Of a DNA stretch of 64,000 nucleotides, positions 3,501 through 60,238 are shown one piece after another (the first letter of the stretch is position 1; each line of letters opens with the position of its first letter). Where the stretch lies: contig CAILLK010000021.1 in assembly GCA_903835005.1 (NCBI GenBank), positions 1 to 64,000 on the forward strand, given 5' to 3'. The notes beneath the pieces were generated by a model, which was not told the DNA's origin, made no database searches, and worked only from the letters and a program-made list of their open reading frames with translations. The translations under genes and the position numbers were made by a program. Origin of the DNA: an uncultured Bacteroidota bacterium (GTDB taxonomy: Bacteria > Bacteroidota > Bacteroidia > Chitinophagales > Chitinophagaceae).

Positions 3501-3681
3501 AAAACGATATATTACCGCATCGTTGAAGCGTGAATTTGCCAGTGAAAACGGTACAGAGCTTAATACCATTTTGCCGAAAATGAGCCCTTTAAATCCTCTG
3601 TATTTGGCAAAAAAGCAACGAGTATTCCAGAAAATCAGCGCTTTTGTAGAAAAATTCAAAGGAGTTGGCGGGCAGCTATAA
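574..3681 (+). CDS. hsdR: Type I restriction endonuclease subunit HsdR
   Basis: 1,035 residues, the normal length for the motor/nuclease subunit that translocates DNA with ATP and cuts it at a distance. The N-terminal PD-(D/E)XK nuclease is visible (Asp154, then Glu168-Leu-Lys170 in VQVELKKRG). The superfamily 2 helicase core follows: Walker A TTGSGKT (residues 311-317), DEAH (411-414), motif III TGTP (about 438-441), and the late motifs FLTGFDAP and QAFSRTNRI. No frameshift or internal stop is seen. It follows the truncated hsdS by 43 bases. Without HsdS and HsdM it should not restrict DNA; hsdM is not in the window. Confidence 0.95.
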
Positions 3682-11744: not shown

Positions 11745-14700
11745 TTGAAGGGCAGCAGTAATTTCGGATATAAATTAGTTTGTTTTATAGCGCTGGTAGC
11801 GGCTATAATGCATGTTGCTGCCCGGGGTTACCGTCCTTTTTATAAGCATTATGATCCGGATCCGGACTCAACATCCTATGATGACAGTGTGGCAAGGGCA
11901 ACAGACAGTATAGCTAAGGCCGAAAAAGAGAAGCACCATCTGAGGTTCCCGATTTATGACAAAACAGGTGACCCATTTACAGATTATAACCGCCCGGGGA
12001 GCATGGACCTCAAAGACCCGAGAAATGAGCACCAGGGATTTGAATACGATCCGGACTCCAACCACTACAACTTTAACGATAAATTAGGGAATGAATTTCT
12101 GCGTAATCCCACCTATCTCACACTTGATGAATACGAGAAATACAGGGGTAAGGAGGATGAGGATGCCTACTGGCAACGCAGGATGGATGCCATGATGCTG
12201 TTTAACAAAACACCGGAATTGCCCCAGATGTACAAAGATGGTTTGTTTGACCGAATATTCGGAACCAATACCATATCTGTAAAGCCGCAGGGAAATGTGG
12301 ACGTAACCTTTGGCGGTAACTGGCAGAATATCAAAAACCCGACCCTGACTCAGCGAGCACAGAAGTATGGCGTATTTGATTTCAACATGGATATGAACAT
12401 CAACCTGCTGGCAACGGTGGGTGATAAACTGAAACTGAATATCAGTAACAATACCAAGGCGACATTTGATTACCAGAATATACAGAAACTGGACTATAGC
12501 GGTAAGGAAGATGAAATGCTTAAAAAGATTGAGGCAGGGAATATCAGTTTCCCGTTAAAGAGCAATCTTATAAGTGGTGTTCAGTCCCTGTTCGGGCTAA
12601 AAACCCAGTTGCAGTTTGGTAAACTTTGGGTAACAACTGTATTGTCTCAGCAGAAATCACAGCGGAAGAGCCTTACCATACAGGGAGGGGCACAATCGCA
12701 GCAGATACTGATAAAGGCCGATAACTATGAGGAAAACAAGGACTTCCTTCTTGCCCAGTATTTCCATGACCATTATAATTCGGCACTTGCCAGTTTTCCA
12801 TTAATCAATTCGGGTGTTAATATCAGCAAAATTGAGGTATGGGTAACCAACAAAAACGGGGTTGTGAACGGAGTGAGAAATGTAGTTGGGTTTATGGACC
12901 TGGGGGAAGCAATGCCCAATAATGGTACGGCCAACCCGATATATAATCCCCGCAATCCGATCAGGAACGGATTACCTGATAACAGCGCTAATTTTCTTTA
13001 CCAGGAGCTGGAACAGAATCCGGCAGCACGTCTGCAATCAACCTCAATCAATACATTACATACTACACTGGGATTAACCCAAGGGCAGGATTTTGAAGCT
13101 GTAACGGCCAGGCAGCTGGCAACAACAGAATTTTCATTTAACCCCGCACTTGGGTATATATTGCTGAATACGCAAATGAACCCATCGGATGTATTAGGTA
13201 TTGCATACCGTTATACCTATAAAGGAAAGGTTTACCAGGTGGGTGAATTTGCAGAAGACCTACCGCCAGACAGTACCGACTCGAAAGTTATTTTTCTGAA
13301 GTTGCTGAAAGGTACATCAGCCAGGCCGGGATTACCTATATGGAAGCTGATGATGAAAAACATCTATGCGCTGGGCGGTTTCGGGGTTTCGAAAGACAAT
13401 TTTATTTTAAATATCCTTTACCAGGAACCGGGAGGTGATGATCTGCGGTATCTGCCAGAAGGGCCCAAAAAAGATATCCCGCTGCTTACCTTGCTTAACC
13501 TTGACCGCCTTAATGCACAAGGAGAGCCCCAGCCTGATGGAATTTTCGACTTTGTGGAAGGGATTACCATCAATACGCAGCAGGGGAAAATAATTTTCCC
13601 AGTGCTTGAACCATTTGGTGAGGATCTGGCACCTGCACTTACTATTCCTCCCAATACCACCCCGGACAGGGTGCTGGCCCAGAAATATGATTTCCAGGTG
13701 CTTTATGATTCGACCAAAGTAATTGCTCAGCAAAACCAGCAAACGGACCGGTACATTCTTAAGGGGAGTTATAAATCTACATCGTCATCAGATATCTTCC
13801 TGGGAGGTTTCGCTATACCTCCCGGATCAGTTTCGGTATCGGCCGGGGGAACAAAGCTGGTGGAGAACCAGGATTATACTGTGGACTATGGGCTGGGGCG
13901 ATTAAAAATCATCAATACGGGGATACTTAATTCCGGGGTGCCTATAAATATTCAGTATGAGGATAATGCCACATTTGGTTTTCAGCAACAGAATTTCATG
14001 GCTGCCAGGTTTGATTATTATGTGAGCAAAAAGCTCACACTGGGCGCAACCATCATGCGGCTGAATGAACGGCCTTTTACGCAGCAGGTAAATTACGGTG
14101 ATGACCCGATTAAAAACACGGTAATAGGCCTGGACATGAATTATCAGTCGGAAGTGGCTGCCATAACCCGTGCATTGAATGTAGTACCAAAGATAATTTC
14201 CACATCGGCATCTTCATTTATCAATGCCAACCTGGAAGGGGCAGCACTATTGCCGGGCCATCCCAAGCAAATAGATGCCCTTGACCCTGAAGGATCGGTA
14301 TATATAGACAACTTTGAGGGTACCAGCAGCACCTACGATCTGAAATTTCCGGCTGTAGCCTGGTCGTTATCCTCAACGCCGTTTGGAGCGGTTAATAAAA
14401 ACAATATTTCATTGTTTCCTGAAGCAGCCAATGATGATGTACTGACCAACGGCCAGAACAGGGCAAAACTGGCATGGTACACACTGGAGCCAACACTTGT
14501 AGACCCGGGGAGCAGTGTGCCTAACTATGTAAAGTATGATACCTTCAACAATAACGCCAACCAGCACTATGTACGAATGGTGCAGCAGCAGGATGTATTT
14601 CCGAATCTGCAAACACAGGCGCTGCAGACTTCACTGAGCACCTTTGACCTGGCCTTTTTCCCCAATCAGCGGGGACCCTATAACTTTGATGCAACCAATG

Positions 14701-17700
14701 TAAATCCGGATGGTACACTTATGAACCCTGCCAGCAGATGGGGTGGTATCAGCAGATCGATAGACAATACCGATTTTGAAGCTTCGAATGTGGAATATAT
14801 CCAATTCTGGGTGATGGACCCTTTTATAGGTAATACACCAAGAACAGGAGGGTCATTGTATATCAACCTGGGAGATATATCGGAAGACATTCTGAAAGAT
14901 TCGAGGATGTTTTTTGAAAATGGTATTCCCAGCCCGTTTGACAATACAAAACTGGATACCACTGTCTGGGGATACGTACCTAAATTTGAACAACAGATTA
15001 CCCAGGCATTTGATAATGACCCAAATGCAAGAATACTGCAGGACGTAGGGTATGATGGTTTACCGGATACAACAACACTGGCAGGGCAACTTGATGAGCG
15101 GCACAAATTTTCAGCATTTTTAAATCAGCTTAAAACCAGATTAGGAGCTAATAATCCGGCATATATATCATCCTTCAATGACCCCTCGAATGATAATTAT
15201 CATTTTTACAGGGGGGGCGACTATGATACTGCTTATGCAGGCAACGGCCTACCGGTAATAAGCAGGTATAAGGCCTATAATAATCCTCAGGGTAACTCCC
15301 CTATCACTGACCCGAATGCTTCTTACTCTACCGCTGAGACTACAATACCGGAATCGGAAGATATCAACAGGGACAATACGCTTAATGAAGCAGAGAACTA
15401 TTTTCAGTACCGTATTGATTTCACGCCCAATATGCCCATTGGCACCAATTATGTTGTGAATACAATTGATACCCTGGTAACCCTGGCAAGCGGCCAGACC
15501 AACCAACGGGAAAAGTGGTACCAGTTTAAAATTCCGATAAAGAACTACAACCATGTAGTAGGTGGTATAGCAGATTTCAGGTCAATCCGGTTTATGCGTA
15601 TGTTCCTGGCCGGGTGGAGCGACAGTGTGGTATTCCGTTTTGCATCGTTGGAACTGGGGCGTAACCAATGGAGAAATTACGAATACAGCCTGCTGACACC
15701 CGGTGAGAATGTACCCCAGGCCAATGCTTCGACAACTGATTTTACTGTTACCTCAGTAAGTATTGAACAAAACGGCTCAAGAACACCCATACCTTATGTA
15801 ATACCACCCGGAGTTTCGCGGCAGCTGACTACAGTGCAAACCGGAGTTAATCTGCAGCAAAATGAACAATCGCTCTCATTAAAAACCTGCGCCCTGCAGG
15901 ATGGCGATGCCCGGGCTGTATATAAAGAGGTGGATGTTAACATGAACCAGTTTACCTACCTGAGAATGTTTATCCATGCCGAGACTGTGCAAGGTGAGCC
16001 GACCGTGAAAGATGCCGATGTAGATGCATTTGTGAGGATAGGGAGTGACTTTACGAACAACTATTATGAGTACAGGATGCCCCTTACCATAACCAAAGTA
16101 CCCGGGCCAACCGCGGACGTGTATGTATGGCCAGCCTCAAACGAAATGGACCTGGTACTGCAAGACCTTGTAAGCGCAAAAAAAGAGCGTGACCTGAAGA
16201 ACTGGCCCAATACGCAACCTTACTATACCAAAGATTCTAAAGGAAATACCATTGTAGTATTGGGCACACCGAATATAGGTGCAGCAAAAAATATTATGCT
16301 GGGTGTAATGAATCCAAAAAAGACCAGCCAAACACCGGGTGATGACGGACTGGCCAAATGCACCGAAGTATGGTTTGATGAGCTGAGGATGGCAGGAATC
16401 AATGACCATGCAGGTTACGCTGCCGCAGGAAAAATAGGGATTCAGCTTGCCGACCTCGGGAATATCAATCTTTCAGGCACCATGCATACGCCCGGGTATG
16501 GCAATATAGACCAGAAAATAGCCCAGAGACTACAGGATAATTACTACCAGTTTAATACATCGGCCAACATAGCGCTTGGTAAATTTTTTCCAAGATCATG
16601 GGGTGTGCAATTGCCGATGTTTGTGGGTTATACCGAGAGCGTCAGCACTCCAAAATATGATCCGTTTAACGGAGATGTGCTGCTGAGCGATGAGCTTTCG
16701 GCTGCCAAAAACAGGGCACAGCGCGACTCTATAAAAAATGTATCGCAGGATTTTACTTCAATCAAAAGCCTGAATTTTACAAATGTGCGGATACTCGGTG
16801 ATAAGGCCGCACCTCCCAAAGCCTTCAAGATGCCCTGGAGCCTTAAAAATTTTGATTTCAGTTATTCACTCAATGACCAGAACAAGCATAATCCGACTGT
16901 ATCAATGGATAATCTGCTTACACAGAAACTGGGCATTGGATATGCTTATAGTATTAAGGTAAAACCGATAGAACCATTCAAAAGGTTAATCACCTCCAAA
17001 TCAAAATGGTTTGCACTGATAAGGGATATCAATATTACGCCCCTGCCATCCACATTCACCATGCGCAACGACCTGAACAGGGTAACGGAAGAAACCCAGG
17101 TAAGAAGCGCCAATGACGGAAGTGGCTATGTGATACCCCCTTCTTTTTACAAAAACTTTACCTGGAACAGGGTGTATACACTGCGTTGGGAATTAATGAG
17201 GTCGCTTTCTTTCGATTATTCGGCCACGAATATCTCAAGAATTGATCAGCCATACGGGCTGATTGATACTAAAGCAAAAGAAGACTCCTTGTGGAACAGG
17301 ATAAAGACACTGGGGCATACAACCAACTATTCGCAGACATTCAACAGCACGTATAATGTGCCTCTGGCAAAACTGCCCCTTACCGACTGGATGACTTTAA
17401 GAGCAAGTTATTCGGCCAATTACTCCTGGACCGGGGCGGCACCTGTGGCTTATGACCTGGGGAATACTATAGGCAATACCCAGACTAAAACAATAGCTGG
17501 TGAAATGAACTTTAATAAACTATATGATAAATGGCGATGGCTGAAAGCAATAAATGCACCACAACCTGCCGCCAAAAAAGACCTGAAAGGCGGTAATATT
17601 TCTGTTCCCGCGAGTGATACCAAACAAACCGTAAAAGACCTCCGGAAAAACCCGACATCGGCATTGCCCGGCGGAGGTAATGGCCCTGGTGGCCTTAACA

Positions 17701-19568
17701 GCCCTGGCGGAAGCGGCAGCGGTGCAGCCGGTGGTGGTAGTGGTGCAGGAGGCAACAACAGTAACGGGCCCGACAGCAGCAAGGCTGGCAGCAATAATCA
17801 TAAAGCCGACAGTAGTAAAACAGGCAAAGGCGGTGCTGGAACAGGGACAGCAGGCACCGGGACCGGAAGTGGCTCAGGGAATACGGCAGGCAATGGTAGT
17901 GGTGGAACCGGCGGTGGAAATAGTGGAGGAAGCAGCGCAAATAATCCTTATTCCGGGGCAATATTCAAAGGCGTAAACATATCGAAACTTACAGACCAGC
18001 AACTGGACTCCATGGTAGACCTGCAAGACGAACTGGATGAGGCCAAGGCTGCCGCCGATAAAGCCAAAAGGAAGGCAGAACGCAAGGCTGCACGGAAACT
18101 GCGAAGAAGCAAACTGCCCCACCTTTCTCCAACAGAAATTGCCATTGGCCGTGTGCTCACTGCACTGACCAGGGTGACGGTTAATTACACTCAGACTGAA
18201 GGCACTATATTGCCGGGATATATGGACAGCACCAGGATTATGGGCGTGAACAATTATTCGAGCGCTCCGGGCTTTAATTTTGTGTATGGCTACCAACCCA
18301 ATGCCACCTGGCTCTACCAGCAGGCAGTAGCCGGCAGACTGACCAGGGACTCGCTATTCAATGCACAGTTTCAGCAAAACTTTACCAGTAATCTCAATGC
18401 CACTGCATCGCTCTCGCCGGTAAAAGATTTAAGGATAGACCTAACACTAACCAAAACATTCAGCAATTCGCGTAGCGCACTCTATGCAGATACGAGCGTA
18501 ACATCGAATACACAACCCTACAGCGCTGATAGTTTCCATCAGTTTAACCCTTATGGCTCAGGGTCGTTTAATATTTCCTACATGTCCCTTAAAACCATGT
18601 TTCAGAATACCAGTGTAGGTTCAAATGTATATAACCAGTTTCTTGCCGACAGGATGATAGTATCGACCCGGCTGGGTAAAAGCAACCCATATACAAATGG
18701 ATTACCTGACCCGTCGAACCCAGGGTATCTAAAAGGCTACGGGCCTTACTCACAGGATGTGTTGGTACCATCATTTATTGCAGCCTATTCTGGCAACAGC
18801 GCCGGAGCAATACCAATGATTGATTACAATCACACCTCCCTGCAGGACAATCCGTTTAAATATTTTAACCCTACGCCTAACTGGAAAATAACTTATAACG
18901 GATTAAGCAAATTGCCGTTTTTCAGTAATTATTTCAAAAGCTTTACCATTAATAATGCATATACAGGTACCATGTCTATAAACGGGTTTAATTCGAACCT
19001 GCTGTTTAATGACCTTTATGGCCTGGGCTTCCCGTCTTTCATCGATTCCAACTCGCATAATTATGTGCCATTCTTCCAGGTGCCGAATGTTACGATATCG
19101 CAGGCGTTCAACCCGCTTGTTGGATTTGATGTTGCATTTAAAAACAACCTTACCTGCAAATTTGAGTTAAGGGAGTCGAAGATGGAGAGCCTTAGTCTGA
19201 TAGATTACCAGATAGCTGAGAATACCAGCAAGGAATATGTGATCGGGCTTGGATTCCGTAAGAAGGGTATCAAGCTTCCTTTTAAGGTAGCAGGCATACG
19301 TAAACTGAAAAATGAACTGATCTGCAAGATGGATATTGGCCTGAGGGATGACAAGACCAGCAATACCTTCCTGGCCAACAATATCAACGTGGTATCGAGG
19401 GGGCAGCAGGTATTAAGGATATCGCCTACTGTAGATTATTCTGTGACACAGAAACTGACGCTTCACTTTTTCTTCGACCGCACGCAGACGATACCTTATG
19501 TGTCTAACTCCTACCCTACTACCACAACCAGGGCAGGCCTGACACTCCGGTTTATATTTGCACAGTAG
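11745..19568 (+). CDS. sprA: T9SS outer-membrane translocon SprA (Sov)
   Basis: 2,607 residues, in the range of SprA/Sov, the giant beta-barrel through which type IX substrates cross the outer membrane. The start is TTG at 11745, giving a signal peptide (about residues 1-28, core LVCFIALVAAIMHVAA); no upstream ATG exists before the ruvA stop. Typical SprA words occur throughout, such as DPEGSVYIDNFEGT and VWFDELRMAGI. Unusual here is a Gly/Ser/Asn-rich stretch of about 90 residues (17,664-17,940) followed by an Ala/Lys/Arg-rich helix (about 18,020-18,115). These sit inside the C-terminal barrel part and probably form an extended loop. Confidence 0.95.
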   Translation: MKGSSNFGYKLVCFIALVAAIMHVAARGYRPFYKHYDPDPDSTSYDDSVARATDSIAKAEKEKHHLRFPIYDKTGDPFTDYNRPGSMDLKDPRNEHQGFEYDPDSNHYNFNDKLGNEFLRNPTYLTLDEYEKYRGKEDEDAYWQRRMDAMMLFNKTPELPQMYKDGLFDRIFGTNTISVKPQGNVDVTFGGNWQNIKNPTLTQRAQKYGVFDFNMDMNINLLATVGDKLKLNISNNTKATFDYQNIQKLDYSGKEDEMLKKIEAGNISFPLKSNLISGVQSLFGLKTQLQFGKLWVTTVLSQQKSQRKSLTIQGGAQSQQILIKADNYEENKDFLLAQYFHDHYNSALASFPLINSGVNISKIEVWVTNKNGVVNGVRNVVGFMDLGEAMPNNGTANPIYNPRNPIRNGLPDNSANFLYQELEQNPAARLQSTSINTLHTTLGLTQGQDFEAVTARQLATTEFSFNPALGYILLNTQMNPSDVLGIAYRYTYKGKVYQVGEFAEDLPPDSTDSKVIFLKLLKGTSARPGLPIWKLMMKNIYALGGFGVSKDNFILNILYQEPGGDDLRYLPEGPKKDIPLLTLLNLDRLNAQGEPQPDGIFDFVEGITINTQQGKIIFPVLEPFGEDLAPALTIPPNTTPDRVLAQKYDFQVLYDSTKVIAQQNQQTDRYILKGSYKSTSSSDIFLGGFAIPPGSVSVSAGGTKLVENQDYTVDYGLGRLKIINTGILNSGVPINIQYEDNATFGFQQQNFMAARFDYYVSKKLTLGATIMRLNERPFTQQVNYGDDPIKNTVIGLDMNYQSEVAAITRALNVVPKIISTSASSFINANLEGAALLPGHPKQIDALDPEGSVYIDNFEGTSSTYDLKFPAVAWSLSSTPFGAVNKNNISLFPEAANDDVLTNGQNRAKLAWYTLEPTLVDPGSSVPNYVKYDTFNNNANQHYVRMVQQQDVFPNLQTQALQTSLSTFDLAFFPNQRGPYNFDATNVNPDGTLMNPASRWGGISRSIDNTDFEASNVEYIQFWVMDPFIGNTPRTGGSLYINLGDISEDILKDSRMFFENGIPSPFDNTKLDTTVWGYVPKFEQQITQAFDNDPNARILQDVGYDGLPDTTTLAGQLDERHKFSAFLNQLKTRLGANNPAYISSFNDPSNDNYHFYRGGDYDTAYAGNGLPVISRYKAYNNPQGNSPITDPNASYSTAETTIPESEDINRDNTLNEAENYFQYRIDFTPNMPIGTNYVVNTIDTLVTLASGQTNQREKWYQFKIPIKNYNHVVGGIADFRSIRFMRMFLAGWSDSVVFRFASLELGRNQWRNYEYSLLTPGENVPQANASTTDFTVTSVSIEQNGSRTPIPYVIPPGVSRQLTTVQTGVNLQQNEQSLSLKTCALQDGDARAVYKEVDVNMNQFTYLRMFIHAETVQGEPTVKDADVDAFVRIGSDFTNNYYEYRMPLTITKVPGPTADVYVWPASNEMDLVLQDLVSAKKERDLKNWPNTQPYYTKDSKGNTIVVLGTPNIGAAKNIMLGVMNPKKTSQTPGDDGLAKCTEVWFDELRMAGINDHAGYAAAGKIGIQLADLGNINLSGTMHTPGYGNIDQKIAQRLQDNYYQFNTSANIALGKFFPRSWGVQLPMFVGYTESVSTPKYDPFNGDVLLSDELSAAKNRAQRDSIKNVSQDFTSIKSLNFTNVRILGDKAAPPKAFKMPWSLKNFDFSYSLNDQNKHNPTVSMDNLLTQKLGIGYAYSIKVKPIEPFKRLITSKSKWFALIRDINITPLPSTFTMRNDLNRVTEETQVRSANDGSGYVIPPSFYKNFTWNRVYTLRWELMRSLSFDYSATNISRIDQPYGLIDTKAKEDSLWNRIKTLGHTTNYSQTFNSTYNVPLAKLPLTDWMTLRASYSANYSWTGAAPVAYDLGNTIGNTQTKTIAGEMNFNKLYDKWRWLKAINAPQPAAKKDLKGGNISVPASDTKQTVKDLRKNPTSALPGGGNGPGGLNSPGGSGSGAAGGGSGAGGNNSNGPDSSKAGSNNHKADSSKTGKGGAGTGTAGTGTGSGSGNTAGNGSGGTGGGNSGGSSANNPYSGAIFKGVNISKLTDQQLDSMVDLQDELDEAKAAADKAKRKAERKAARKLRRSKLPHLSPTEIAIGRVLTALTRVTVNYTQTEGTILPGYMDSTRIMGVNNYSSAPGFNFVYGYQPNATWLYQQAVAGRLTRDSLFNAQFQQNFTSNLNATASLSPVKDLRIDLTLTKTFSNSRSALYADTSVTSNTQPYSADSFHQFNPYGSGSFNISYMSLKTMFQNTSVGSNVYNQFLADRMIVSTRLGKSNPYTNGLPDPSNPGYLKGYGPYSQDVLVPSFIAAYSGNSAGAIPMIDYNHTSLQDNPFKYFNPTPNWKITYNGLSKLPFFSNYFKSFTINNAYTGTMSINGFNSNLLFNDLYGLGFPSFIDSNSHNYVPFFQVPNVTISQAFNPLVGFDVAFKNNLTCKFELRESKMESLSLIDYQIAENTSKEYVIGLGFRKKGIKLPFKVAGIRKLKNELICKMDIGLRDDKTSNTFLANNINVVSRGQQVLRISPTVDYSVTQKLTLHFFFDRTQTIPYVSNSYPTTTTRAGLTLRFIFAQ
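17664..17940 (+). repeat. Gly/Ser/Asn-rich low-complexity insert within sprA
   Basis: This in-frame stretch of about 92 codons is dominated by GGT, GGC, GGA, AGC and AAC, encoding runs such as GGNGPGGLNSPGGSGSG. It has the look of a slippage-expanded linker and keeps the reading frame. A basic Ala/Lys/Arg helix follows. It lies between blocks that look like ordinary SprA barrel strands. Confidence 0.7.
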
Positions 19569-38172: not shown

Positions 38173-41100
38173 ATGAATCAAGGCATAGTACTTGGAGCCG
38201 TCCGACCAGACCTCTTGCGCGATGAAACACTTGCGGATATTTTCCGTATGTCGGCTAAGACATACGGTTCAAATACTGCTTTGATTTTCAATGATCAGAA
38301 TATCAGTTATGCCGAACTGGACAAATGGAGTGATGCCCAGGCAGATTATCTGTACCAGCAAGGTATAATGCCCGGCGACTCTGTTGGCTTATGGTGGCCT
38401 CGCGGCCTGGAATTGCATGTAGCCGTTTTAGGCATTGTAAAAGCCGGTGCCGCATATGTGCCGCTGGATAGAGAAATGCCTGCGGAAAGAGTTGAAACAG
38501 TACTGAAGGAAGTTGGCGCTAAAGGATATATCAGTGATGAAAAGCTTGCATTGGATTGCCAGATGTTTGGTGTAGTCCCTCAGCCGAAAACAGATGTACC
38601 TGTTTACATTACCCCTGGCGCTCGACCTGATAACTGGGCCTATGTTTTGTATACATCGGGCAGTACAGGTAAACCTAAGGGCATACCTATTGCCCACCGC
38701 CAGATATGCCATTTTGTAAGAGCCGAACAATCAGTTCTGGAGATAACCAGCAGTGATAAAGTTTACCAGGGTTTTTCTGTTTCATTTGATATGTGGTGCG
38801 AAGAAACCTGGATATCTTACTTTGCCGGAGCTACATTGTGGGTAGCAGATATGGCCACAGCCAAATCTATTGATGAACTGGGTGAAGTTATCCGCAAAAA
38901 CCGGATAACAGTGCTCCATGCAGTGCCCAGCCTTTTGGCGGTGATGGAGGACGACATACCGCTTCTGAGACTGGTGAATGCCGGCGGGGAAGCTTGCACA
39001 CAGCAGGTACTGGCAAGATGGTCTGTTCCAGCCCGAAGATTTTTTAACAGCTACGGGCCTACCGAAACTACAGTTACTGCAACGCTTATTTCTCTGCAAC
39101 CTGGCGATGCTATCACTATTGGCATTCCATTGCCCAATTATAATATTGCTGTGGTTGACGAAAATCTGAATATTCTGCCAGTTGGCGAACGGGGCGAGCT
39201 GGTGATAACCGGACCGGGAGTTTGCAAAGGGTATATTAATCTTCCGGAATTAACTGCACAGAAATTCGTACCTAAACCCCCTCAAATGGATGCACTGCCG
39301 GGGGATATGGTATACCGATCAGGCGATGCAGCTATAATAAACCCCGATAAAAGTATTGATTTCCAGGGCCGTTTTGATGATCAGATAAAACTGCGCGGAT
39401 ACCGTATTGAACTTGGAGAAATTGAAACCAGGTTAAGCAATCTGCCCGACATAGCTGCAGCTGCGGTAGCTGTCAAGCAGGATGTAAACGGCCAGGACCA
39501 CCTTGCCGGCTATGTGGTTTGCGATGACCCGGTAACCATGAATCAGCAGCATATACGCGGTGAGCTGGCAAAAGTATTACCTGCCTATATGGTGCCAAGC
39601 GTGATCATGCAATTGTCGGAAATGCCGCGCCTGCCCAGTGGCAAAATAAACCGGAAAGCGCTGCCAATTCCGGCCATGCTGCTCGAAAATGCAGGAGCTA
39701 TCACTAACGAAATTATTGATCTTGATGCCCCTATGGGCGACAGGGTTATAGCTGCGTTAAAAAAGTTTTTCCCAAACAGGATAATAGAACTGACCAATGA
39801 TTTTTTTACAGACCTGGGCGGGCATTCCTTACTGGCAGCAGCTGTTGTTTCCCGGTTAAGAAGGGAAGCCAACATTCCGCAGGCATCTTTAAAAGACATA
39901 TACCAGCACCGGCCTTTAAGCAACCTGGTTCAGTATTGGGAAACCAAACCGGTCGCTGAAACCAAGGCAAAGAAAATATTTAATGAAATACCGCGCAAAA
40001 GATACCTGGTATGCTGGCTTGCACAAACATGCTCCCTAATGCTGTTTTACTGCCTGTTTGCTGTTCAGATTTTCTTTCCTTACCTGGGGTATTATATAGT
40101 AGTGGAGGAAACGAAAAACATACCTTATGCCATCACAACGGCTCTTTGTTTGTTTTGTTTTATACCCCCTTTATTTTCGCTGCTCACTATTGCCGTTAAA
40201 TGGCTGGTTATTGGTAAAATGAAGGAAGGCGACTATCCGCTCTGGGGCACTTATTACTTCAGGTGGTGGTTTGTGAAAACAATGCAACGTTTATTGCCAT
40301 CGCAGTTTCTGAATGGAACGCCTCTTTACAATGGCTTTATGCGGCGTATTGGTGTAAAAGTGGCCAAAGACGCACAGCTTGGCGCCATGACTATCGGAGC
40401 CGAAGACCTCGTAACCATTGGCAGTGATGTAAGTATCAGTTCACAGGTAGTACTCAATAATGCAATTGTGGAAGATGGGATGCTCCGGTTGCGCAGCATT
40501 TATCTTGGCGACCACGCCTATATAGGAAGCAGCGCTGTCATTTCGGGCGGAGCAAGAATCGAAGACTGGGGAGAATTGCAGGACCTTAGTTTCCTGCAGG
40601 AAGGCAAAACAATTAAAAGTGGTGAAGTATGGATGGGAAGTCCTGCGGTGTTTAAAGAAAAGAAAGCAATTGAAGATCTTCCCCAACCCCTGTTCGTATC
40701 CAATGCGAAACGCAACAGGTATACCCTTATTTTCTCGCTTTCATTACTCATTTTTCCGTTCGTTGTTCTGCTGCCGCTATTGCCTACCATCATCATCATC
40801 AACAATCTCGATAACTCAACTCCCGATTACGACTTCAGTTACCTGATTGTGACCCCATCTCTTGCACTGAGTTACATTATTGTTTTTACACTTGTTACAG
40901 TTGTATTGACCCGGTTGCTTCAGCGCGGAATTAAACCTGGTAAGTATCCAATTTACAGCTGGTTTTATGTGCGCAAATGGTTTGCCGACCAGCTGATGTC
41001 CCTATCCCTTATTGTATTGCATCCTATTTATGCCACAGTATATATATCCCTGCTTTTCCGCGCACTGGGTGCCAAAGTAGGCCGCAATACAGAAATTTCT

Positions 41101-42111
41101 ACAGCCAGCAGTGTAACCCATCCCTTGCTGGAAATTGGTAAAGGATCATTTATAGCAGATGCAGTAACCCTTGGAGAGTCGGACATAAGAGGGCAACAAC
41201 TGATACTCGATAAAACGGTTATCGGCAACAACAGTTTTGTGGGCAACAGTGCCTTGATTCCACAGGGGTATAATCTGCCGGGGCGTATGCTTATCGGGGT
41301 ATTGTCTACACCTCCTACAAAAGAGCAAATAGCAGGAGAAACAGCCCGCGATTGGTTTGGCTCACCTGCCATTGCCCTACCCCGTCGCCAGGCAAGCAGG
41401 ACTTTTGCTACCGAGCTAACTGCCCGCCCGCGTCCGTCGGTGGTGTTAGCTAGGAGTATTGTAGAATTTATCCGTATTCTGATACCTGAAACAGTAATCC
41501 TGATCTGCAGTATTCTTTTTATTGCCTATACACACGACCTGCTGGTAAGTAAGCCCTGGTGGATGATAATACTGCTGATGCCATTTTACTATTTATTCTT
41601 TATGGGTTTCCCTACATTCCTGATAACGGTGTTATTAAAATGGATTACGGTAGGTAAGTATATACCCGAACAAAAACCAATGTGGACATCTAAAGTCTGG
41701 CGAAGCGAAGCCATTACCTCAACATATGAAGCCCTGGCAGTTCCCTTCCTGCTCGACTTTATGAAAGGCACACCATGGCTTCCTATAGTACTCAGATTGC
41801 TGGGCATGAAAACCGGCAAAAGGGTATGGATGAATACAACTGACATCACCGAGCATGATATGGTGAGTATTGGCGATGACACTGCCCTGAACGAAGACTG
41901 CGGCCCTCAAACCCACCTGTTTGAAGACCGGGTTATGAAAGTAGGCCCGGTTAAGGTTGGAAAAAAGTGCAGCATAGGCGCCAAAACCATTATACTATAC
42001 GACAGTGAGATAGGTGATAATGTAAACATTGAGGCTCTTTCACTCGTTATGAAGGGCGAGAACCTGCAATCTGACAGCAGCTGGGGCGGCAGTCCTATCA
42101 AGCCTGTGTAA
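38173..42111 (+). CDS. Pls/PosA-family non-ribosomal peptide synthetase (epsilon-poly-lysine synthetase-like)
   Basis: 1,312 residues. An adenylation domain fills about 15-500: A3 YTSGSTGKPKG (160-170), A5 NSYGPTETT (292-300), A7 YRSGDAA, GYRIELGEIE (409-418) and A10 SGKINRKALP. A carrier domain has the phosphopantetheine serine in DLGGHSLLAA (Ser552). Then come three similar modules, each a pair of membrane helices (about 612-680, 851-915, 1102-1160) followed by a left-handed beta-helix (about 718-825, 955-1066, 1198-1308) ending in WMGSPA, WFGSPA and WGGSPI. There is no condensation or thioesterase domain. This is the layout of the Pls/PosA family, whose founder polymerises lysine through its side-chain amine. 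Read against GrsA by eye, the pocket is D-M-E-S-V-A-S-V-T-K. The product is unknown. Confidence 0.88.
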   Translation: MNQGIVLGAVRPDLLRDETLADIFRMSAKTYGSNTALIFNDQNISYAELDKWSDAQADYLYQQGIMPGDSVGLWWPRGLELHVAVLGIVKAGAAYVPLDREMPAERVETVLKEVGAKGYISDEKLALDCQMFGVVPQPKTDVPVYITPGARPDNWAYVLYTSGSTGKPKGIPIAHRQICHFVRAEQSVLEITSSDKVYQGFSVSFDMWCEETWISYFAGATLWVADMATAKSIDELGEVIRKNRITVLHAVPSLLAVMEDDIPLLRLVNAGGEACTQQVLARWSVPARRFFNSYGPTETTVTATLISLQPGDAITIGIPLPNYNIAVVDENLNILPVGERGELVITGPGVCKGYINLPELTAQKFVPKPPQMDALPGDMVYRSGDAAIINPDKSIDFQGRFDDQIKLRGYRIELGEIETRLSNLPDIAAAAVAVKQDVNGQDHLAGYVVCDDPVTMNQQHIRGELAKVLPAYMVPSVIMQLSEMPRLPSGKINRKALPIPAMLLENAGAITNEIIDLDAPMGDRVIAALKKFFPNRIIELTNDFFTDLGGHSLLAAAVVSRLRREANIPQASLKDIYQHRPLSNLVQYWETKPVAETKAKKIFNEIPRKRYLVCWLAQTCSLMLFYCLFAVQIFFPYLGYYIVVEETKNIPYAITTALCLFCFIPPLFSLLTIAVKWLVIGKMKEGDYPLWGTYYFRWWFVKTMQRLLPSQFLNGTPLYNGFMRRIGVKVAKDAQLGAMTIGAEDLVTIGSDVSISSQVVLNNAIVEDGMLRLRSIYLGDHAYIGSSAVISGGARIEDWGELQDLSFLQEGKTIKSGEVWMGSPAVFKEKKAIEDLPQPLFVSNAKRNRYTLIFSLSLLIFPFVVLLPLLPTIIIINNLDNSTPDYDFSYLIVTPSLALSYIIVFTLVTVVLTRLLQRGIKPGKYPIYSWFYVRKWFADQLMSLSLIVLHPIYATVYISLLFRALGAKVGRNTEISTASSVTHPLLEIGKGSFIADAVTLGESDIRGQQLILDKTVIGNNSFVGNSALIPQGYNLPGRMLIGVLSTPPTKEQIAGETARDWFGSPAIALPRRQASRTFATELTARPRPSVVLARSIVEFIRILIPETVILICSILFIAYTHDLLVSKPWWMIILLMPFYYLFFMGFPTFLITVLLKWITVGKYIPEQKPMWTSKVWRSEAITSTYEALAVPFLLDFMKGTPWLPIVLRLLGMKTGKRVWMNTTDITEHDMVSIGDDTALNEDCGPQTHLFEDRVMKVGPVKVGKKCSIGAKTIILYDSEIGDNVNIEALSLVMKGENLQSDSSWGGSPIKPV

Positions 42112-42455: not shown

Positions 42456-42989
42456 ATGAACATATCATTCCTAAACCTCACCCTCCGTTCCCTGACCATT
42501 GATGATGGCCCTGAATTTTATGCCTTGATAGACCGCAACAGGCTGCGCCTGCGCGACTATTTCCCTGTCACCACCGCAACAATATTCAGCCTGGATGACT
42601 GTTTTAAGTATATAGATAATAAAGTAGATCAGGCCAATAAAAAAGAACATTTCACATTCGTTATTGAAGATGTAAACAAGCAACTCCGTGGTCTGTTTTT
42701 TATCAAAAACATCGATTGGCGGGTACCAAAAGCCGAACTTGCTTACTTCATTGATAAAACGCTGGAGGGCAAAGGCATTATGACAAGTGCACTAGGAGCA
42801 GTTGTTGATTATGGATTCAATAACTTACAAATGAACAAGCTTTTTTTGCTCACAGCCACCGACAACCTTCCCAGCCGCAAAATTGCAGAGAAAAACAGGT
42901 TTCAGCTGGAAGGAATTCTGAAGAGTAATTTCAAACTTTGTTCGGGCGAACTGACAGATATGGCATACTATGGCCTATTGCGGGGATAA
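42456..42989 (+). CDS. GNAT-family N-acetyltransferase (RimL-like)
   Basis: 177 residues. GNAT motif A is in AELAYFIDKTLEGKGIMTSA (acetyl-CoA pyrophosphate loop, LEGKGI), with motif B in KLFLLTATDNLPSRKIAEKN, then FQLEGILK. RimL/RimJ relatives acetylate N-terminal or side-chain amines of ribosomal proteins or small molecules. It is 344 bases after the Pls/PosA-like gene on the same strand. A link to that product is possible but unproven. Confidence 0.85.
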   Translation: MNISFLNLTLRSLTIDDGPEFYALIDRNRLRLRDYFPVTTATIFSLDDCFKYIDNKVDQANKKEHFTFVIEDVNKQLRGLFFIKNIDWRVPKAELAYFIDKTLEGKGIMTSALGAVVDYGFNNLQMNKLFLLTATDNLPSRKIAEKNRFQLEGILKSNFKLCSGELTDMAYYGLLRG

Positions 42990-45605: not shown

Positions 45606-47492
45606 GTGAAGCAATTGAAACAGATATTTTTAATAAAATATATATTTTTAACCTGTCTTATTGCAGCTTGTTTATTAGCAGATGCACAGGAAATGACCGG
45701 GCCCCTAATGTGGAATCCGGTATTGGCCCATCAGCAAAGCAACCTGAAAAAACTGGCTAAAAAAACAACCGCTGCCTTATCACTTCCATTCTTCGAAGAT
45801 TTCACCTACTATACACCCTACCCTGACTCTAATAAATGGGTTGATTTTGAAGCCTTTATCAATAATACAATGGGGCGGACCCCTGTAAGTTGGGGAGTAG
45901 CCACTCTCGACGATCTCAATCAGCTTGGACTCCCCTACGACTCCTTCAGTAATAATACTACAAGATATTGCGATAGTCTTACCTCCCGGCCAATAGATAT
46001 CAGCTCCAATTCGGTTGGCGACAGTTTATACCTGAGCTTTTTTTACCAGGCCCAGGGCAACGGGTATTACCCCCAGCCCGAAGATTCATTGCAGCTTTAT
46101 TTTAAAAACAAATATGGCGATTATGAGCTAGTCTGGTCTGCTCCCGGCCCTGATCCCGGCGCTTTGGTTCAGCCTTTCCAGATAGCTATGATCCCGGTTA
46201 CCGATACACTCGATTTTCATGGTTCATTCCAGTTCCGGTTTGTCAATATCGCCGCACTCAACTGGTCGGATGCGGTTTGGAATGTAGATTACATAAAACT
46301 GGATAAATACCGTACCCTTTCTGATACCACAGTGAGTGATGTAGGGTTTACCTGTGCCCCCGGTTACCTGCTGAATGATTATACTTATATGCCCTATAAT
46401 CAGTTTAAGGCCAACCCTAATTCTGAAATCGTATCTACTCTTTTTGATAGTATCAGAAATGATACGTCCTATGGCCAGACGGTGAATTTCTCATTTACGG
46501 TTAAAGATAGTGCAACAAACATTGCCGGTAGCGCTGGGTCAAGCAGTATTTTCCTGTCGGGATACCAGGCGAACCAGGTAAATGAACCATTTTTACCCTT
46601 CGGGTTCCCGAGTCATCCTGCAAATTCAGTGGTAAATTACCAGGTTAAGTTTTTTATTGACAGCGACATAACTACCGGACCAACCAATAATGATACGGTC
46701 GTCCGCAATCAGGTATTCGACAATTACCTTGCCTATGATGACGGTACTGCTGAAAAGAGTTATTATCTCAACCTGTTCACTTCATTACCTGGAAAAATTT
46801 CCATAGAATACCATCTCAATCAGCCTGATACACTAAGGGCCCTGGCTATTTATTTTGGCCGGCAAATCCCGTTTGCGAATTATAAACCATTCTATATAGA
46901 AGTATACAGCGCTCTGAACACCATAAACGGAGCAACTGCCGATGTTCCGCTGTATTCATCCTTAACACCTCAGTATCCTGCTTATGCTGATAGTGTAAAC
47001 CATTTCTGGATCTACCCCCTGGATACTCCTATCGGATTACCCGCAGGAGTTTTTTATGCCGGAACCATGCAGACTGATGCTGATGGCAGTGACAGTATCT
47101 ATTACGGGCTTGATGTAAACAGGGTTGGAAATAATCACGCTTACTACAATGTGCTGGGCGACTGGACGCCCTCAACAATTGGCGGAGCTATTATGATAAG
47201 GCCTATCCTCGGGAAAGTAGTATCGGGCAGCTACGTTACCACTGTATTGCCTGCCAACCTTGTTGACTGGCAGGCAAGCCCCAATCCTGCAACCGGTAAT
47301 CTTAAGTTTGAGTTTGGAACCGATCAGGCGGCACAATATATACTTTCAGATGTGATGGGCCACACCCTGATGACCGGATCTGTTTTCAGCGGCAAATCAA
47401 TAAACCTGGAAGAACTGCCACCCGGTATGTATTTTGTATCGCTTCGTGCCAGCGGGATTTCACCGGTTCCTAAAAAGATTATCAGGTTGTAA
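45606..47492 (+). CDS. Secreted protein with T9SS type A sorting domain
   Basis: 628 residues from GTG at 45606, with a signal peptide (IFLTCLIAACLLADAQ). The body contains beta-rich segments of no recognised family (PFFEDFTYYTPYPDSNKW near the start recalls MAM/jellyroll-like extracellular domains). The last 75 residues form a T9SS C-terminal domain: WQASPNPATGNLKFEF, YILSDVMGHTLMTG, LEELPPGMYFVSL and KKIIRL. The cargo should be exported through SprA and attached or released at the surface. Its task is unknown. Confidence 0.8.
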   Translation: MKQLKQIFLIKYIFLTCLIAACLLADAQEMTGPLMWNPVLAHQQSNLKKLAKKTTAALSLPFFEDFTYYTPYPDSNKWVDFEAFINNTMGRTPVSWGVATLDDLNQLGLPYDSFSNNTTRYCDSLTSRPIDISSNSVGDSLYLSFFYQAQGNGYYPQPEDSLQLYFKNKYGDYELVWSAPGPDPGALVQPFQIAMIPVTDTLDFHGSFQFRFVNIAALNWSDAVWNVDYIKLDKYRTLSDTTVSDVGFTCAPGYLLNDYTYMPYNQFKANPNSEIVSTLFDSIRNDTSYGQTVNFSFTVKDSATNIAGSAGSSSIFLSGYQANQVNEPFLPFGFPSHPANSVVNYQVKFFIDSDITTGPTNNDTVVRNQVFDNYLAYDDGTAEKSYYLNLFTSLPGKISIEYHLNQPDTLRALAIYFGRQIPFANYKPFYIEVYSALNTINGATADVPLYSSLTPQYPAYADSVNHFWIYPLDTPIGLPAGVFYAGTMQTDADGSDSIYYGLDVNRVGNNHAYYNVLGDWTPSTIGGAIMIRPILGKVVSGSYVTTVLPANLVDWQASPNPATGNLKFEFGTDQAAQYILSDVMGHTLMTGSVFSGKSINLEELPPGMYFVSLRASGISPVPKKIIRL

Positions 47493-52607: not shown

Positions 52608-54020
52608 ATGAAAAAGACATTACTTACAGCAACAATGGCATTGCTGATGTATGGTGTTGCCTGTGCGCAAAGTTGCCCGAATCCGGATTTCGAAAACTGG
52701 AATTCAACTAATAATTATGCCCCTGATTCAGGATGGTACAACTCAAATGTTCAATCGCTGACATGGCATGATTCCCTTACGGTCTGGAGTGTAAGTGGTT
52801 TCAGCGGACATGCGGCGCATATTCAGACAGCCATCATAGGTACCGATACCATGCAGGCATGGCTGATCAACTCTGTTGGCGATCCGCGTAAAGGCATAGG
52901 AGGTGTTCCTTACTCTCAGCAACCAACCGCGCTAACAGGATATTATCGCTACAGCCTTCCCGGAAATGACAGCGCTGGCATAATGGTTGTTTTCAAAAAA
53001 AGCGGAACAATCGTCAGCACTAACGGAATGATGATACGAAATGCATCAGGCAGTCTGCTCACTTATACTCCTTTCACTGTGCCCATTACCCTTTCTGTAG
53101 TACCCGATACCGTAATTATAGCCATAGTAAGCAGCAATCTTTTTGGAACCGGACTTCAATCAGGCAGCTGGCTTGAGGTCGATCAGCTGGCATTTTCAGG
53201 TACGGGCATTTCACAAATAATTCCTGATGGCAATTTCGATACATGGATCAATAATCCGGTTATTGTACCTGAAGGCTGGCTCTCAGGTGCCAACTTTAAT
53301 ACTACAGGCGTCAGTCAGTCAACAGATGCCTATTCCGGCACTTATTCAGTACAACTCGTCAGCACACCGGGCGATAATGGTTCGGGAGGAACCAGAATAG
53401 TTGGTGCTGAAATAACAAATGGCAGAATGGTATCAAACCATGGACCTGAAGGAGGCCTGCCTTACACACATGCTGGAGCAGACACTTTGTTCGGATATTA
53501 TAAATATACCCCGGGAGGCACAGACAGTGCTGCCATATCAGTTAACCTCACTCATCTGGGAACTATGGTTGGCGGCAACGGTATTACCTTACCTGCTGCC
53601 TCTGCCTGGACACTATTTTCATTGCCCCTCAATTCAATGAGCACACCGGACTCTATACTCATAACCATTCAGAGTTCTTCCTGGAATTCAACAACTACTA
53701 TTCCCGGCAGTACACTCAAAGTAGATCACATGTGGCTAAAATCACAGCCATTATACCTTAATGAATTATCCAATTCAGCTGGTCTGGTTGTTTACCCCAA
53801 TCCGGCAAACGATGTGCTCAATTTCAGATTTGATGAACAGGAAACCGGCCCGGTATCCATAAAAATATACGATCTGACGGGAAGGGTAATTGATAATTAT
53901 GATTATGTCAGAGTACCCTTTATAATAACTTTACCAGTAGAACCATTACCAATGGGTATGTATTTATATGAAATCAGGAACAATGGTACGGTAATAAGAG
54001 ATAAGTTTATAAAAAAATAA
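52608..54020 (+). CDS. Secreted protein with two PCMD-like repeats and T9SS sorting domain
   Basis: 470 residues with a signal peptide (TLLTATMALLMYGVACAQ). Two similar jellyroll-type repeats (about 20-200 and 205-385) begin with CPNPDFENWNSTNNYAPDSGW and IPDGNFDTWINN and include the parallel words LTGYYRYSLPGNDSAGIMV and LFGYYKYTPGGTDSAAISV. These resemble putative carbohydrate-binding PCMD domains. The C-terminus is a type A T9SS tail (VVYPNPANDVLNFRF, IKIYDLTGRVI, MGMYLYEI, KFIKK). It is probably a surface or matrix protein that binds glycans. Confidence 0.8.
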   Translation: MKKTLLTATMALLMYGVACAQSCPNPDFENWNSTNNYAPDSGWYNSNVQSLTWHDSLTVWSVSGFSGHAAHIQTAIIGTDTMQAWLINSVGDPRKGIGGVPYSQQPTALTGYYRYSLPGNDSAGIMVVFKKSGTIVSTNGMMIRNASGSLLTYTPFTVPITLSVVPDTVIIAIVSSNLFGTGLQSGSWLEVDQLAFSGTGISQIIPDGNFDTWINNPVIVPEGWLSGANFNTTGVSQSTDAYSGTYSVQLVSTPGDNGSGGTRIVGAEITNGRMVSNHGPEGGLPYTHAGADTLFGYYKYTPGGTDSAAISVNLTHLGTMVGGNGITLPAASAWTLFSLPLNSMSTPDSILITIQSSSWNSTTTIPGSTLKVDHMWLKSQPLYLNELSNSAGLVVYPNPANDVLNFRFDEQETGPVSIKIYDLTGRVIDNYDYVRVPFIITLPVEPLPMGMYLYEIRNNGTVIRDKFIKK

Positions 54021-57651: not shown

Positions 57652-60033
57652 TTATTGAACCATCAGTTTTTGAGTATGAACCTGGCTTCCGGTTGCAGTT
57701 TGCACAACGTACATACCAGGAACTGAAATTACATCATGTGGAATCAGAATCCTGGCCTCATTAGAAGTCAATTGCTCACTGGTACGGAACACTTCTTTGC
57801 CAGTAATATCACAAACCACAATATTGGCAACAGCATACTCAGCATCTTTAATAATTACATAAGCATCACCATTGGTTGGATTCGGAGCAATTGCAACATC
57901 CATGTTATCCAGTTTTACATTGGCAACACCGGCAGGGAACGGACTGAAAAATACCCTGTCCATAAAGAAGTTGTTACCACTGCTGTAAATTCCGGTTCCT
58001 ACAGTTCCATCATACCCTGCAGCTACACCCGGTTTGTAGCGCCAGCGGAAAACAGTGTAATTGGTCTTAGCTGCAGCAGGCAGGTTTATGCTCATCTGTG
58101 CCCAGTCGCTTGCAGAAGTAGGGTAAAAAGCAGTACCCACCGGACCCATATTATCAACGCCTCTTTTGGTAAGCACAGCTAGTGTGTTCCATCCCTGAGA
58201 CTCTCTTACCGAATAATCGATTTCCAGGGTATCATTCAAATCGAAGGCATTGCTGGAACGGGAAGCTCCTGAATAAAAATAATTAAGGCTGCAATATCCG
58301 GTATAAGAAGACAGATCAAACGGGATACTGAAAAAATCATCAAAATCGCCATAGGGGCTTCCTGTATTTGGATAGGCACCGGTCAATGGATTATATCTGT
58401 TATCATAACCGGTATACATTATACAGCTGTTATCTAAATAACCCACATTGGCCCATTGCCATTTGAATTCATTGTTATAATAATTGAATGAAGGCCATTT
58501 TGCAGTATCAGCACCATTAAAATCCTGAAAATAAGAATTTGCATTAAGGCCTGCTGCATCTGCAACGAAAACCGCACGTGGCCACTCAACTGTTGTGTCT
58601 CCGCTGGCTCCGTTGCCTGTAGCATGCATTTTCACATCAACCCAGCCGGGTGTACTAAAGTTATTATTGAAGTAGGTAAGAGCGCTGTCATTGGTAGATG
58701 AGTTAAAATCAGAATGCAATGCACCATTTGAGAATGTCCAGTCAAGGTTGCTCAAAGTATCATTCCATGTTTCGTTACGGAAAGTTACTGATGTACCTGG
58801 GAAAGTAAAATACTCAGGATCATTATGATACTGAAGGCTTAATGAATAGGGTGTTACTTCAAATTCCGGAATTGGTTTCAGATCCAGCCTTGGAGTAAAT
58901 GTCTTTGCTACAGTATCATTCAATACACCCGTAATATAAAGGTTGCTAACGCTCCACAGATTATTGCGGCCTGCTACATCACTGTTCAGCGCCTGGTGCA
59001 TACGGTAAACCTGTCCCTTTGTAAACATCCTTGAACAATAGGTGTAGTCCATTATATTCTGAGTATTGGTAGTATCCGGATAATTAACAAGTGAATCCAG
59101 GCCAGCATCATTAGAATATAATTTAAAATAATTCGTGGCACATGCAGAGTCATACAGACTGTTAGGATTACTGCTCGGAAGATCAGGACGACAACCAGGC
59201 TCAACATGCCCCATTGTAGGAGGTGTATCGTCTACTTCATCATCGCCGCAGGCTACTCCCGGATTATTCGTTCCACCCCAGGGATGGTAAAGGCTGAATA
59301 CATGGCCCATTTCATGGTTAATAGTTTTACTTACCGACAATGCACCGGTATATTCATTTGCCAAATAAGAAGCATCTGAAATTACGCCATCATAAAAAGG
59401 AACATACGTTACAGACGACGGGAAGTAGGCATAAGCTGCTGCTTCTCCGTTTCCGGTGGTAATTACTTCTACTGTCCAGATATTTACATATGAGGTTGGA
59501 GGCCATCCATCAAATTTTGACTGATCACCACCATAGTAGTTCAGATAGCTTCTGTGGCGGGTGATACCCTTGGTAGGATTTCCATTGGGATCCCTTGAAG
59601 CAAGGTGCAACCGGATGTGAGGATTACCAATATATGGAACGAATGGCGCAACCACACTGTTTGTATCATAGTTTTCTTTCGCATATACAATATTCCAGTT
59701 CAGCAGGTCATTGAAAATATCATCGTCTGTCAGGTACAAACTTTTGTCATTGCCGTAATCATGTATAACGTGTACTACAATTGGAATATCATACCAGAAA
59801 TTAGCATTATCAGTTTCATCAGTAAATGTTGTCTTTTTTGCAGTTCTGAAGTCAATTTTTTTCAGACCGTCATTAATCTGTTTTTCATATTCAGCTTCAA
59901 GCTGAGCCAGTTCCGGATGGGCGAACAATAAACGCTTATGCATTTCATCAGTAGCACAAGGGCGATTTTGAGCATACGTACTGCCTGCAAAACATACCAG
60001 TGCAAGCGCTAAAAGAAAATAGTTCTTTGTCAT
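57652..60033 (-). CDS. M43-family (pappalysin/cytophagalysin) metalloprotease with T9SS sorting domain
   Basis: 793 residues from the ATG at 60033, giving signal peptide MTKNYFLLALALVCFAG ending YAQ; the frame is open to 60075 but the promoter element at 60055-60062 lies inside that extension. The conserved start CATDEMHKRLLFAHPE is followed by the zinc site HEMGHVFSLYH (HExxHxxxxxH), the M43 loop CGDDEVDDTPPT and the Met-turn NIMDYTYCSRMFTKGQ. A PKD-like segment (about 400-470), a MAM-like jellyroll and a C-terminal T9SS domain (APNPTNGDAYVII, VVCDITGKEVF, PGMYVVQTATG) complete it. It is probably a secreted endopeptidase. Confidence 0.93.
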   Translation of the reverse strand: MTKNYFLLALALVCFAGSTYAQNRPCATDEMHKRLLFAHPELAQLEAEYEKQINDGLKKIDFRTAKKTTFTDETDNANFWYDIPIVVHVIHDYGNDKSLYLTDDDIFNDLLNWNIVYAKENYDTNSVVAPFVPYIGNPHIRLHLASRDPNGNPTKGITRHRSYLNYYGGDQSKFDGWPPTSYVNIWTVEVITTGNGEAAAYAYFPSSVTYVPFYDGVISDASYLANEYTGALSVSKTINHEMGHVFSLYHPWGGTNNPGVACGDDEVDDTPPTMGHVEPGCRPDLPSSNPNSLYDSACATNYFKLYSNDAGLDSLVNYPDTTNTQNIMDYTYCSRMFTKGQVYRMHQALNSDVAGRNNLWSVSNLYITGVLNDTVAKTFTPRLDLKPIPEFEVTPYSLSLQYHNDPEYFTFPGTSVTFRNETWNDTLSNLDWTFSNGALHSDFNSSTNDSALTYFNNNFSTPGWVDVKMHATGNGASGDTTVEWPRAVFVADAAGLNANSYFQDFNGADTAKWPSFNYYNNEFKWQWANVGYLDNSCIMYTGYDNRYNPLTGAYPNTGSPYGDFDDFFSIPFDLSSYTGYCSLNYFYSGASRSSNAFDLNDTLEIDYSVRESQGWNTLAVLTKRGVDNMGPVGTAFYPTSASDWAQMSINLPAAAKTNYTVFRWRYKPGVAAGYDGTVGTGIYSSGNNFFMDRVFFSPFPAGVANVKLDNMDVAIAPNPTNGDAYVIIKDAEYAVANIVVCDITGKEVFRTSEQLTSNEARILIPHDVISVPGMYVVQTATGSQVHTQKLMVQ

Positions 60034-60054
60034 TATTAAATAATTAAGAAGTTC

Positions 60055-60062
60055 CAAAGATA
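60055..60062 (-). promoter_or_regulatory. TAnnTTTG promoter element for the M43 protease gene
   Basis: On the minus strand it reads TATCTTTG, an exact match, 21 bases before the ATG at 60033. Confidence 0.55.
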
Positions 60063-60238
60063 AAAAAATAAACAAACTTTCACAATAATTTCAGAGTTTA
60101 ATGACCTCTGAAAAGTAAATTTCTGAATATTAGTTCAGTCATCTTCATGTATAGACGAGTATTCCGGCAAAAATCTTGGGTATTTATAAAAATATTTTTT
60201 TCGGAACTAAAAAAAGAGGCCTCAATTACTATATAACA

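Follow-up and report, generated by a model that had tools for sequence, protein, structure and literature searches.

A probable delta-poly-L-ornithine synthetase of the PosA type in a lineage of Bacteroidota

What polymer, if any, is made by the large Pls/PosA-type synthetase encoded at 38173..42111 on the forward strand of contig CAILLK010000021.1 (GenBank assembly GCA_903835005.1), from an uncultured Chitinophagaceae bacterium of the phylum Bacteroidota? The window, that is the whole 64,000-nucleotide stretch analysed here (positions 1 to 64,000 of the contig), had been given a sequence-only reading, in which the gene was taken to encode a polymerising synthetase whose pocket suits an amine on the side chain and which may make an unknown homopolymer, with lysine, ornithine and diaminobutyrate as candidates. 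The type of enzyme and of pocket is supported by the present analysis, Glu210 of the synthetase sharing an alignment column with Glu221 of PosA from Acinetobacter, but the product need not be called unknown, since the pocket matches that of this delta-poly-L-ornithine synthetase better than it matches lysine-, diaminobutyrate- or arginine-type codes, and among the three candidates ornithine is thus favoured. The enzyme is probably a membrane-bound PosA-type synthetase of delta-poly-L-ornithine with a single module, and this known polymer is its most likely product because the pocket closely resembles that of PosA, the enzyme falls within the PosA clade and structural comparison ranks PosA first.

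The adenylation domain spans residues about 15-500 (38215..39672, +) and is recognised by Pfam and by TIGR01733 (371.9 bits, cut-off 317.4), with PosA 8g95 as the top match among solved folds. Residues 195-311 align to PosA (PDB 8G95/8G97) without gaps (E = 3.6e-38), whereas the alignment to the epsilon-poly-lysine synthase 7WEW is poorer (E = 6e-21). With the pocket columns counted from the published PosA residues, the first nine positions are D206, M207, E210, H249, N269, G271, S293, V301 and T302 (38788..39078, +), while the tenth is K491 (39643..39645, +), which is placed by the SGKINRK motif and which we take to be the catalytic lysine of motif A10. The synthetase pocket accordingly reads DMEHNGSVTK. 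The pocket residues described for PosA are Asp217, Met218, Glu221, His260, Asn280, Thr304, Val312 and Ser313, its code is DMEHNGTVSK, and in the published structures Glu221 binds the terminal amine of the substrate (PMC10522769). Eight positions are hence identical, and the two Ser/Thr exchanges, at positions 7 and 9, both preserve the hydroxyl. Asp, Met and Glu occupy positions 1-3 (D206, M207, E210) and hydroxyls positions 7 and 9 (S293, T302), as expected of a PosA-type pocket, while the Ala found at position 2 of lysine-type pockets (DAESIGTVVK) is replaced by M207. Of the pocket previously read by eye, D-M-E-S-V-A-S-V-T-K, seven of the ten letters stand, but positions 4-6 are H-N-G; the letters S-V-A lie outside the columns of His260, Asn280 and the next Gly of PosA.

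The same columns were applied to other loci. For the posA locus of A. baumannii they return DMEHNGTVSK, identical to the published code, and for a Streptomyces gene annotated as pls they return DAESIGTVVK. Two loci that have a diaminobutyrate transaminase gene next to them read DFECLSAVTK and DFECLSVVTK. Yet another locus gives DSECYGGVTK, the code reported for a Bdellovibrionales enzyme with modest L-arginine activity (PMC10522769). In a set of 80 relatives from named genomes, 53 read DMEHNGSVTK, 20 DMEHNGSVSK, four DMEHNGTVTK, one DMEHNGTVSK and one DMESNGSVSK, and one sequence is cut within the pocket, so that 78 of the 80 have DMEHNG, V and K and a Ser or Thr at both position 7 and position 9, and one has S for H. 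In a second set of 35 loci, which include that of the window (L015) and partly overlap the 80, the DMEHNG code was found 31 times, three sequences being cut and one being of lysine type. Nine other adenylation domains score above the cut-off in the same genome, and none of the eight that were read is DMEHNG, the nearest being DAEDIGAV-K. These nine nonribosomal peptide synthetase domains (genome G000) are found on contigs C109, C82 and C31, their open frames being 1,180 to 4,197 amino acids long. A lysine-type pocket, DAESIGTVIK, occurs in a Bacteroidota genome of the same class (locus L132, genome G529), and represents a second Pls/PosA kind in the phylum, outside the group of the window enzyme.

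Kinship with PosA is likewise seen beyond the pocket. The A. baumannii posA locus is 39.1% identical to the synthetase over 100% of the query (44.5% in the adenylation domain, 36.6% in the C-terminal domain), and the two have a common domain order and similar length. An AlphaFold2 model of the adenylation domain (predicted local distance difference test, pLDDT, 86.1) has PosA 8g95/8g96 as its best Foldseek matches at 43-44% identity and TMt 0.91-0.92, with the epsilon-poly-lysine synthase 7wew in 20th place at 36% identity. In a plain sequence search the two-adenylation-domain gramicidin synthase LgrA ranks above PosA by summed score, but domain by domain PosA scores higher, with 365 bits, the better of the two LgrA domains reaching 192. 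Trees of 33 sequences were built from the adenylation domain, the C-terminal domain and both together; two plasmid-collection reading frames in which no adenylation-domain motifs could be read, presumably because of a wrong frame (L124, L127), and one incomplete reading frame (L125) were left out of the final trees and of the conservation counts. A split uniting the Bacteroidota DMEHNG group, the A. baumannii locus and an Azospirillum/Rhizobium pair has support values of 0.979, 0.94 and 0.994, respectively, and with a Sphingomonas DMEHNG sequence added the corresponding values are 0.902, 0.709 and 0.983. With two lysine-type enzymes of Streptomycetaceae as the root, Sphingomonas splits off first, and since it does so the ornithine-type pocket would be ancestral and altered in the Azospirillum/Rhizobium pair. 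The members of this pair (L115 and L117, on plasmids) group with PosA and yet have the pocket DLEDIG(S/T)VVK; a similar code, DLEDIGTV(T/V/I)K, is described as a unique signature in the PosA paper (PMC10522769), and these enzymes are a better place to seek an unknown polymer.

PosA differs from the window synthetase in belonging to another phylum and in that the activity of the latter is predicted only, and neither has obvious cotranscribed partners (for PosA, PMC10522769). Pls, the epsilon-poly-L-lysine synthetase of Streptomyces (adenylation domain PDB 7WEW), belongs to the same family and has the same plan and invariant C-terminal residues, but its pocket is DAESIGTVVK, and the annotated plasmid pls is 39% identical to the window synthetase in the adenylation domain and 28% in the C-terminal domain. 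Synthetases of the poly-diaminobutyrate/diaminopropionate type again have the family plan, but Phe occupies the second position of their pocket; two of the fetched loci have a diaminobutyrate transaminase gene beside them, whereas none was found among the nine open reading frames scanned around the window synthetase.

The gene itself (P0001; 1,312 residues from an ATG start, stop codon included, from reading-frame analysis and TIGR02353) has no internal stop, and the frame is real, intact and strongly conserved. It was previously described as combining adenylation, carrier and three membrane/beta-helix modules with no condensation or release domain, and this description is borne out by Pfam, TIGR02353 and AlphaFold2. 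Pfam reports AMP-binding at residues 24-354, AMP-binding_C at 416-491 and PP-binding at 534-588, all above cut-offs, as well as a hexapeptide repeat at 1260-1290, and classical condensation, thioesterase and reductase domains are absent from the six Pfam families reported. Residues 617-1309 match positions 2-695 of the 695-position model TIGR02353, 'Pls/PosA family non-ribosomal peptide synthetase' (NCBIfam), at 663.2 bits against a curated cut-off of 423.1; one adenylation and one carrier domain precede the TIGR02353 region as in the family plan. The carrier domain (residues about 520-595; 39730..39957, +) contains the phosphopantetheine site Ser552 in the motif GGHSL, which is kept in 90 of 90 sequences compared, a set comprising the window, 78 Bacteroidota sequences and 11 plasmid-collection homologues from Pseudomonadota and Actinomycetota.

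An AlphaFold2 model of residues 505-1312 (56 sequences; mean pLDDT 86.2, predicted template modelling score 0.87) has six long helices in three pairs with a beta-helix after each pair, and the model together with a module-to-module alignment delimits three modules on the forward strand: C1 (residues 608-839; 39994..40689; helices 608-647/650-680), C2 (residues 844-1079; 40702..41409; helices 844-882/889-916), which holds D996 and N1025, and C3 (residues 1088-1308; 41434..42096; helices 1088-1126/1129-1160), which holds Q1246, H1248 and E1296. Each of the six helices includes a strongly hydrophobic segment, and the three modelled pairs of membrane helices with their beta-helix modules are those of the family, membrane insertion being predicted. 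The same layout of helix pairs and beta-helices is given for PosA, from its authors' own model (PMC10522769).

The only histidine of the C-terminal domain kept across all 90 sequences is H1248 (41914..41916, +), opposite which A764 of C1 and S1003 of C2 are found in the module alignment; Q1246, D996 and N1025 are likewise kept in 90 of 90 sequences and E1296 in 89. Profile searches with this domain find gamma-carbonic anhydrases, LpxD and the maltose and serine acetyltransferases, with only partial matches among those listed, and the Foldseek matches are all partial among the best 50 of 477. Enzymes of this beta-helix acyltransferase fold act at the interfaces between beta-helices, often with a catalytic histidine, and LpxD moves acyl groups from a carrier-protein thioester to an amine. 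LpxD and maltose O-acetyltransferase are however separate trimeric enzymes, whereas the synthetase, with which they have the left-handed beta-helix of hexapeptide repeats in common by short and weak matches, fuses three modules with hydrophobic helix pairs in one chain. Because H1248 is conserved and the fold commonly employs a histidine at an interface, one composite active site may be proposed rather than three, with H1248 as a putative general base, and its conservation indeed suggests a single site in a pseudo-trimer. A bolder proposal, which we put forward only tentatively and which may well prove wrong, is that the 'three tandem condensation domains' of all family members together form one fused pseudo-trimer with just one active site, dependent on the carrier; there the QTH motif of C3 (Q1246, H1248), E1296 and perhaps D996/N1025 of C2 would make the isopeptide bond in the manner of a hexapeptide-type acyltransferase, C1 would be structural, and the polymer would in the Bacteroidota branch be a constitutive cell component and not an occasional antibiotic. 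On the basis of their model, the authors of the PosA work suggested a single domain made up of all three regions, and they name no catalytic residue in the available text (PMC10522769).

The proposed reaction would begin with installation of the phosphopantetheine arm on S552 by a phosphopantetheinyl transferase whose gene lies elsewhere in the genome. The adenylation domain would activate L-ornithine to ornithyl-AMP, its side-chain amine being held by E210, S293 and T302, and the ornithine would then be loaded onto the arm. The C-terminal domain, envisaged as three beta-helices like those of hexapeptide acyltransferases, arranged as a pseudo-trimer on six hydrophobic helices, would repeatedly link ornithines by joining the thioester carbonyl of one to the delta-amine of another, probably with H1248 of C3 as catalytic base in the single composite site, giving a short cationic isopeptide chain. 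The anatomy, the pocket letters, the grouping with PosA, the modelled fold and the conservation are observed here, and from them the substrate, linkage, polymerisation, catalytic residue and biological role are inferred. As to the transferase, a search of the genome for one had been proposed, and three PF01648 matches score above the cut-off; their open frames are 139, 240 and 231 amino acids long, and the latter two would be of Sfp size.

Within the genus a match above the cut-off was found in 32 of 35 genomes (own included), in one of them (G024) split across two contigs, and the three genomes with no match are 65%, 59% and 99% complete. The whole search of relatives gave matches in 41 of 149 genomes, and an even sample of the phylum in 6 of 395, own included; the relatives comprise Chitinophagaceae, Taibaiella, Flavipsychrobacter, Chitinophaga, Mucilaginibacter, Pedobacter and uncultured Bacteroidetes bins. 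For two of six relatives synonymous change (dS) was finite, and the ratio of non-synonymous to synonymous change (dN/dS) is 0.024 (dS 1.37) and 0.027 (dS 3.44, near saturation), values so low that the gene is not a chance reading frame; for the other four synonymous change is saturated and dN is 0.118-0.136. The family is thus rare in the phylum sample, yet a near-core gene under strong purifying selection in this genus.

The gene content around the synthetase varies between lineages and is of little help as a clue to the substrate. Neighbours were compared at 81 loci, the window included, by BLAST clustering, with Pfam run on two of 19 phosphopantetheinyl-transferase-like and two of 15 GNAT genes, and as several loci are cut by contig ends the counts are lower bounds. 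A trmH-like gene is near the synthetase in at least 16 loci, a phosphopantetheinyl-transferase-like gene adjoins it in at least 19, and a GNAT gene lies directly downstream in at least 15, mostly from Chitinophaga (L056, L058-L069, L080, L088), starting -3 to 131 bases from the end of the synthetase; such a GNAT might have a role in modifying the polymer or in protecting the cell. The GNAT of the window (42456-42989) has no significant similarity to two other GNATs compared, one of them from Chitinophaga, nor are those two similar to each other, and because no significant similarity exists among the GNATs compared it was not counted as part of the system. On a Sphingomonas plasmid (L116, 4938-10053) the genes for the synthetase, a phosphopantetheinyl transferase and a GNAT are linked by overlaps of four bases each in an operon-like arrangement. 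Elsewhere the window encodes a type I restriction enzyme subunit R (574-3681, +), a large SprA_N protein of type IX secretion and gliding (11745-19568, +; 2,607 residues by reading-frame call) and three proteins with type IX secretion sorting tails (45606-47492, 52608-54020, 57652-60075).

Several points weigh against a delta-poly-L-ornithine product and the proposed mechanism. Pocket codes predict substrates imperfectly, the locus sharing the code of PosA is only about 44% identical to the synthetase in the adenylation domain and 37% in the C-terminal domain, and the pocket can evidently change within the PosA group, since its Azospirillum and Rhizobium members read DLEDIG. In addition, H1248 was not placed on a known catalytic histidine in the five listed sequence alignments to solved hexapeptide enzymes. 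It could furthermore be argued that the polymer is one of another diamino acid, such as lysine or diaminobutyrate, or of arginine, as family polymers comprise lysine, beta-lysine, diaminobutyrate, diaminopropionate and ornithine, the adenylation domain of one member activates arginine, a Glu at position 3 suits any side-chain amine, and PosA itself adenylates L-lysine to some degree, albeit that it made no lysine polymer (PMC10522769). This is made unlikely by the Met at position 2, which is that of PosA, lysine enzymes having Ala and diaminobutyrate/diaminopropionate enzymes Phe (PMC10522769, in agreement with our own columns), and by the pairing of His and Asn at positions 4 and 5, which within the sets examined is confined to DME-type sequences.

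That ornithine is activated and just one or a few units are attached to some other acceptor, be it a lipid, some part of the envelope or a small molecule, with no free polymer being formed, is in keeping with the varied acceptors of beta-helix acyltransferases, with the near-core status of the gene, which is unusual for an antibiotic pathway, and with the GNAT genes downstream. Such a function is nevertheless improbable, since the C-terminal domain has kept all positions that do not vary between PosA and Pls across the sequences compared, since PosA by itself yields 7-12-mers in vitro (PMC10522769), and since the window GNAT is not significantly similar to the compared Chitinophaga GNAT. A non-functional relic, in favour of which nothing was found, is scarcely conceivable, given the intact frame, the conserved carrier serine and pocket, the low dN/dS of both measurable comparisons and the presence in nearly all genomes of the genus. 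A PosA-type synthetase making delta-poly-L-ornithine hence remains the preferred reading.

The polymer was also suggested to be antimicrobial, which is possible, but the published activity is antifungal and not antibacterial: a synthetic 12-mer inhibits three fungi at 0.15-0.30 g/L, while two bacteria are unaffected up to 0.30 g/L (PMC10522769). The statement that such polymers are little studied in Bacteroidota agrees with a limited search of the open-licence literature, in which no report of poly-ornithine or of the gene-cluster class NAPAA was identified for this phylum; both that class and a Pls/PosA-like domain are named in PMC13291983. The main text of PMC10522769 holds no bacteroid-, chitinophag-, flavobact- or sphingobact- names, the available text of a paper on Pedobacter natural products does not mention ornithine, lysine or homopoly- (PMC12181424), and in what is available of another paper NAPAA is only listed in a legend (PMC11613949).

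What is added here is probably a new bacterial branch for a known kind of enzyme and not a new polymer, and the near-core status in the genus, the rarity in the phylum sample and the conservation of H1248 in the third module are likewise new. PosA-type enzymes are thereby extended to a lineage for which no published report was found, and an 'unknown polymer' is turned into a specific and cheaply testable prediction, delta-poly-L-ornithine. In the polymerising domain, H1248 is the residue that would tell one active site from three, and the near-universal retention of the gene in one genus raises the question of what purpose these polycations serve.

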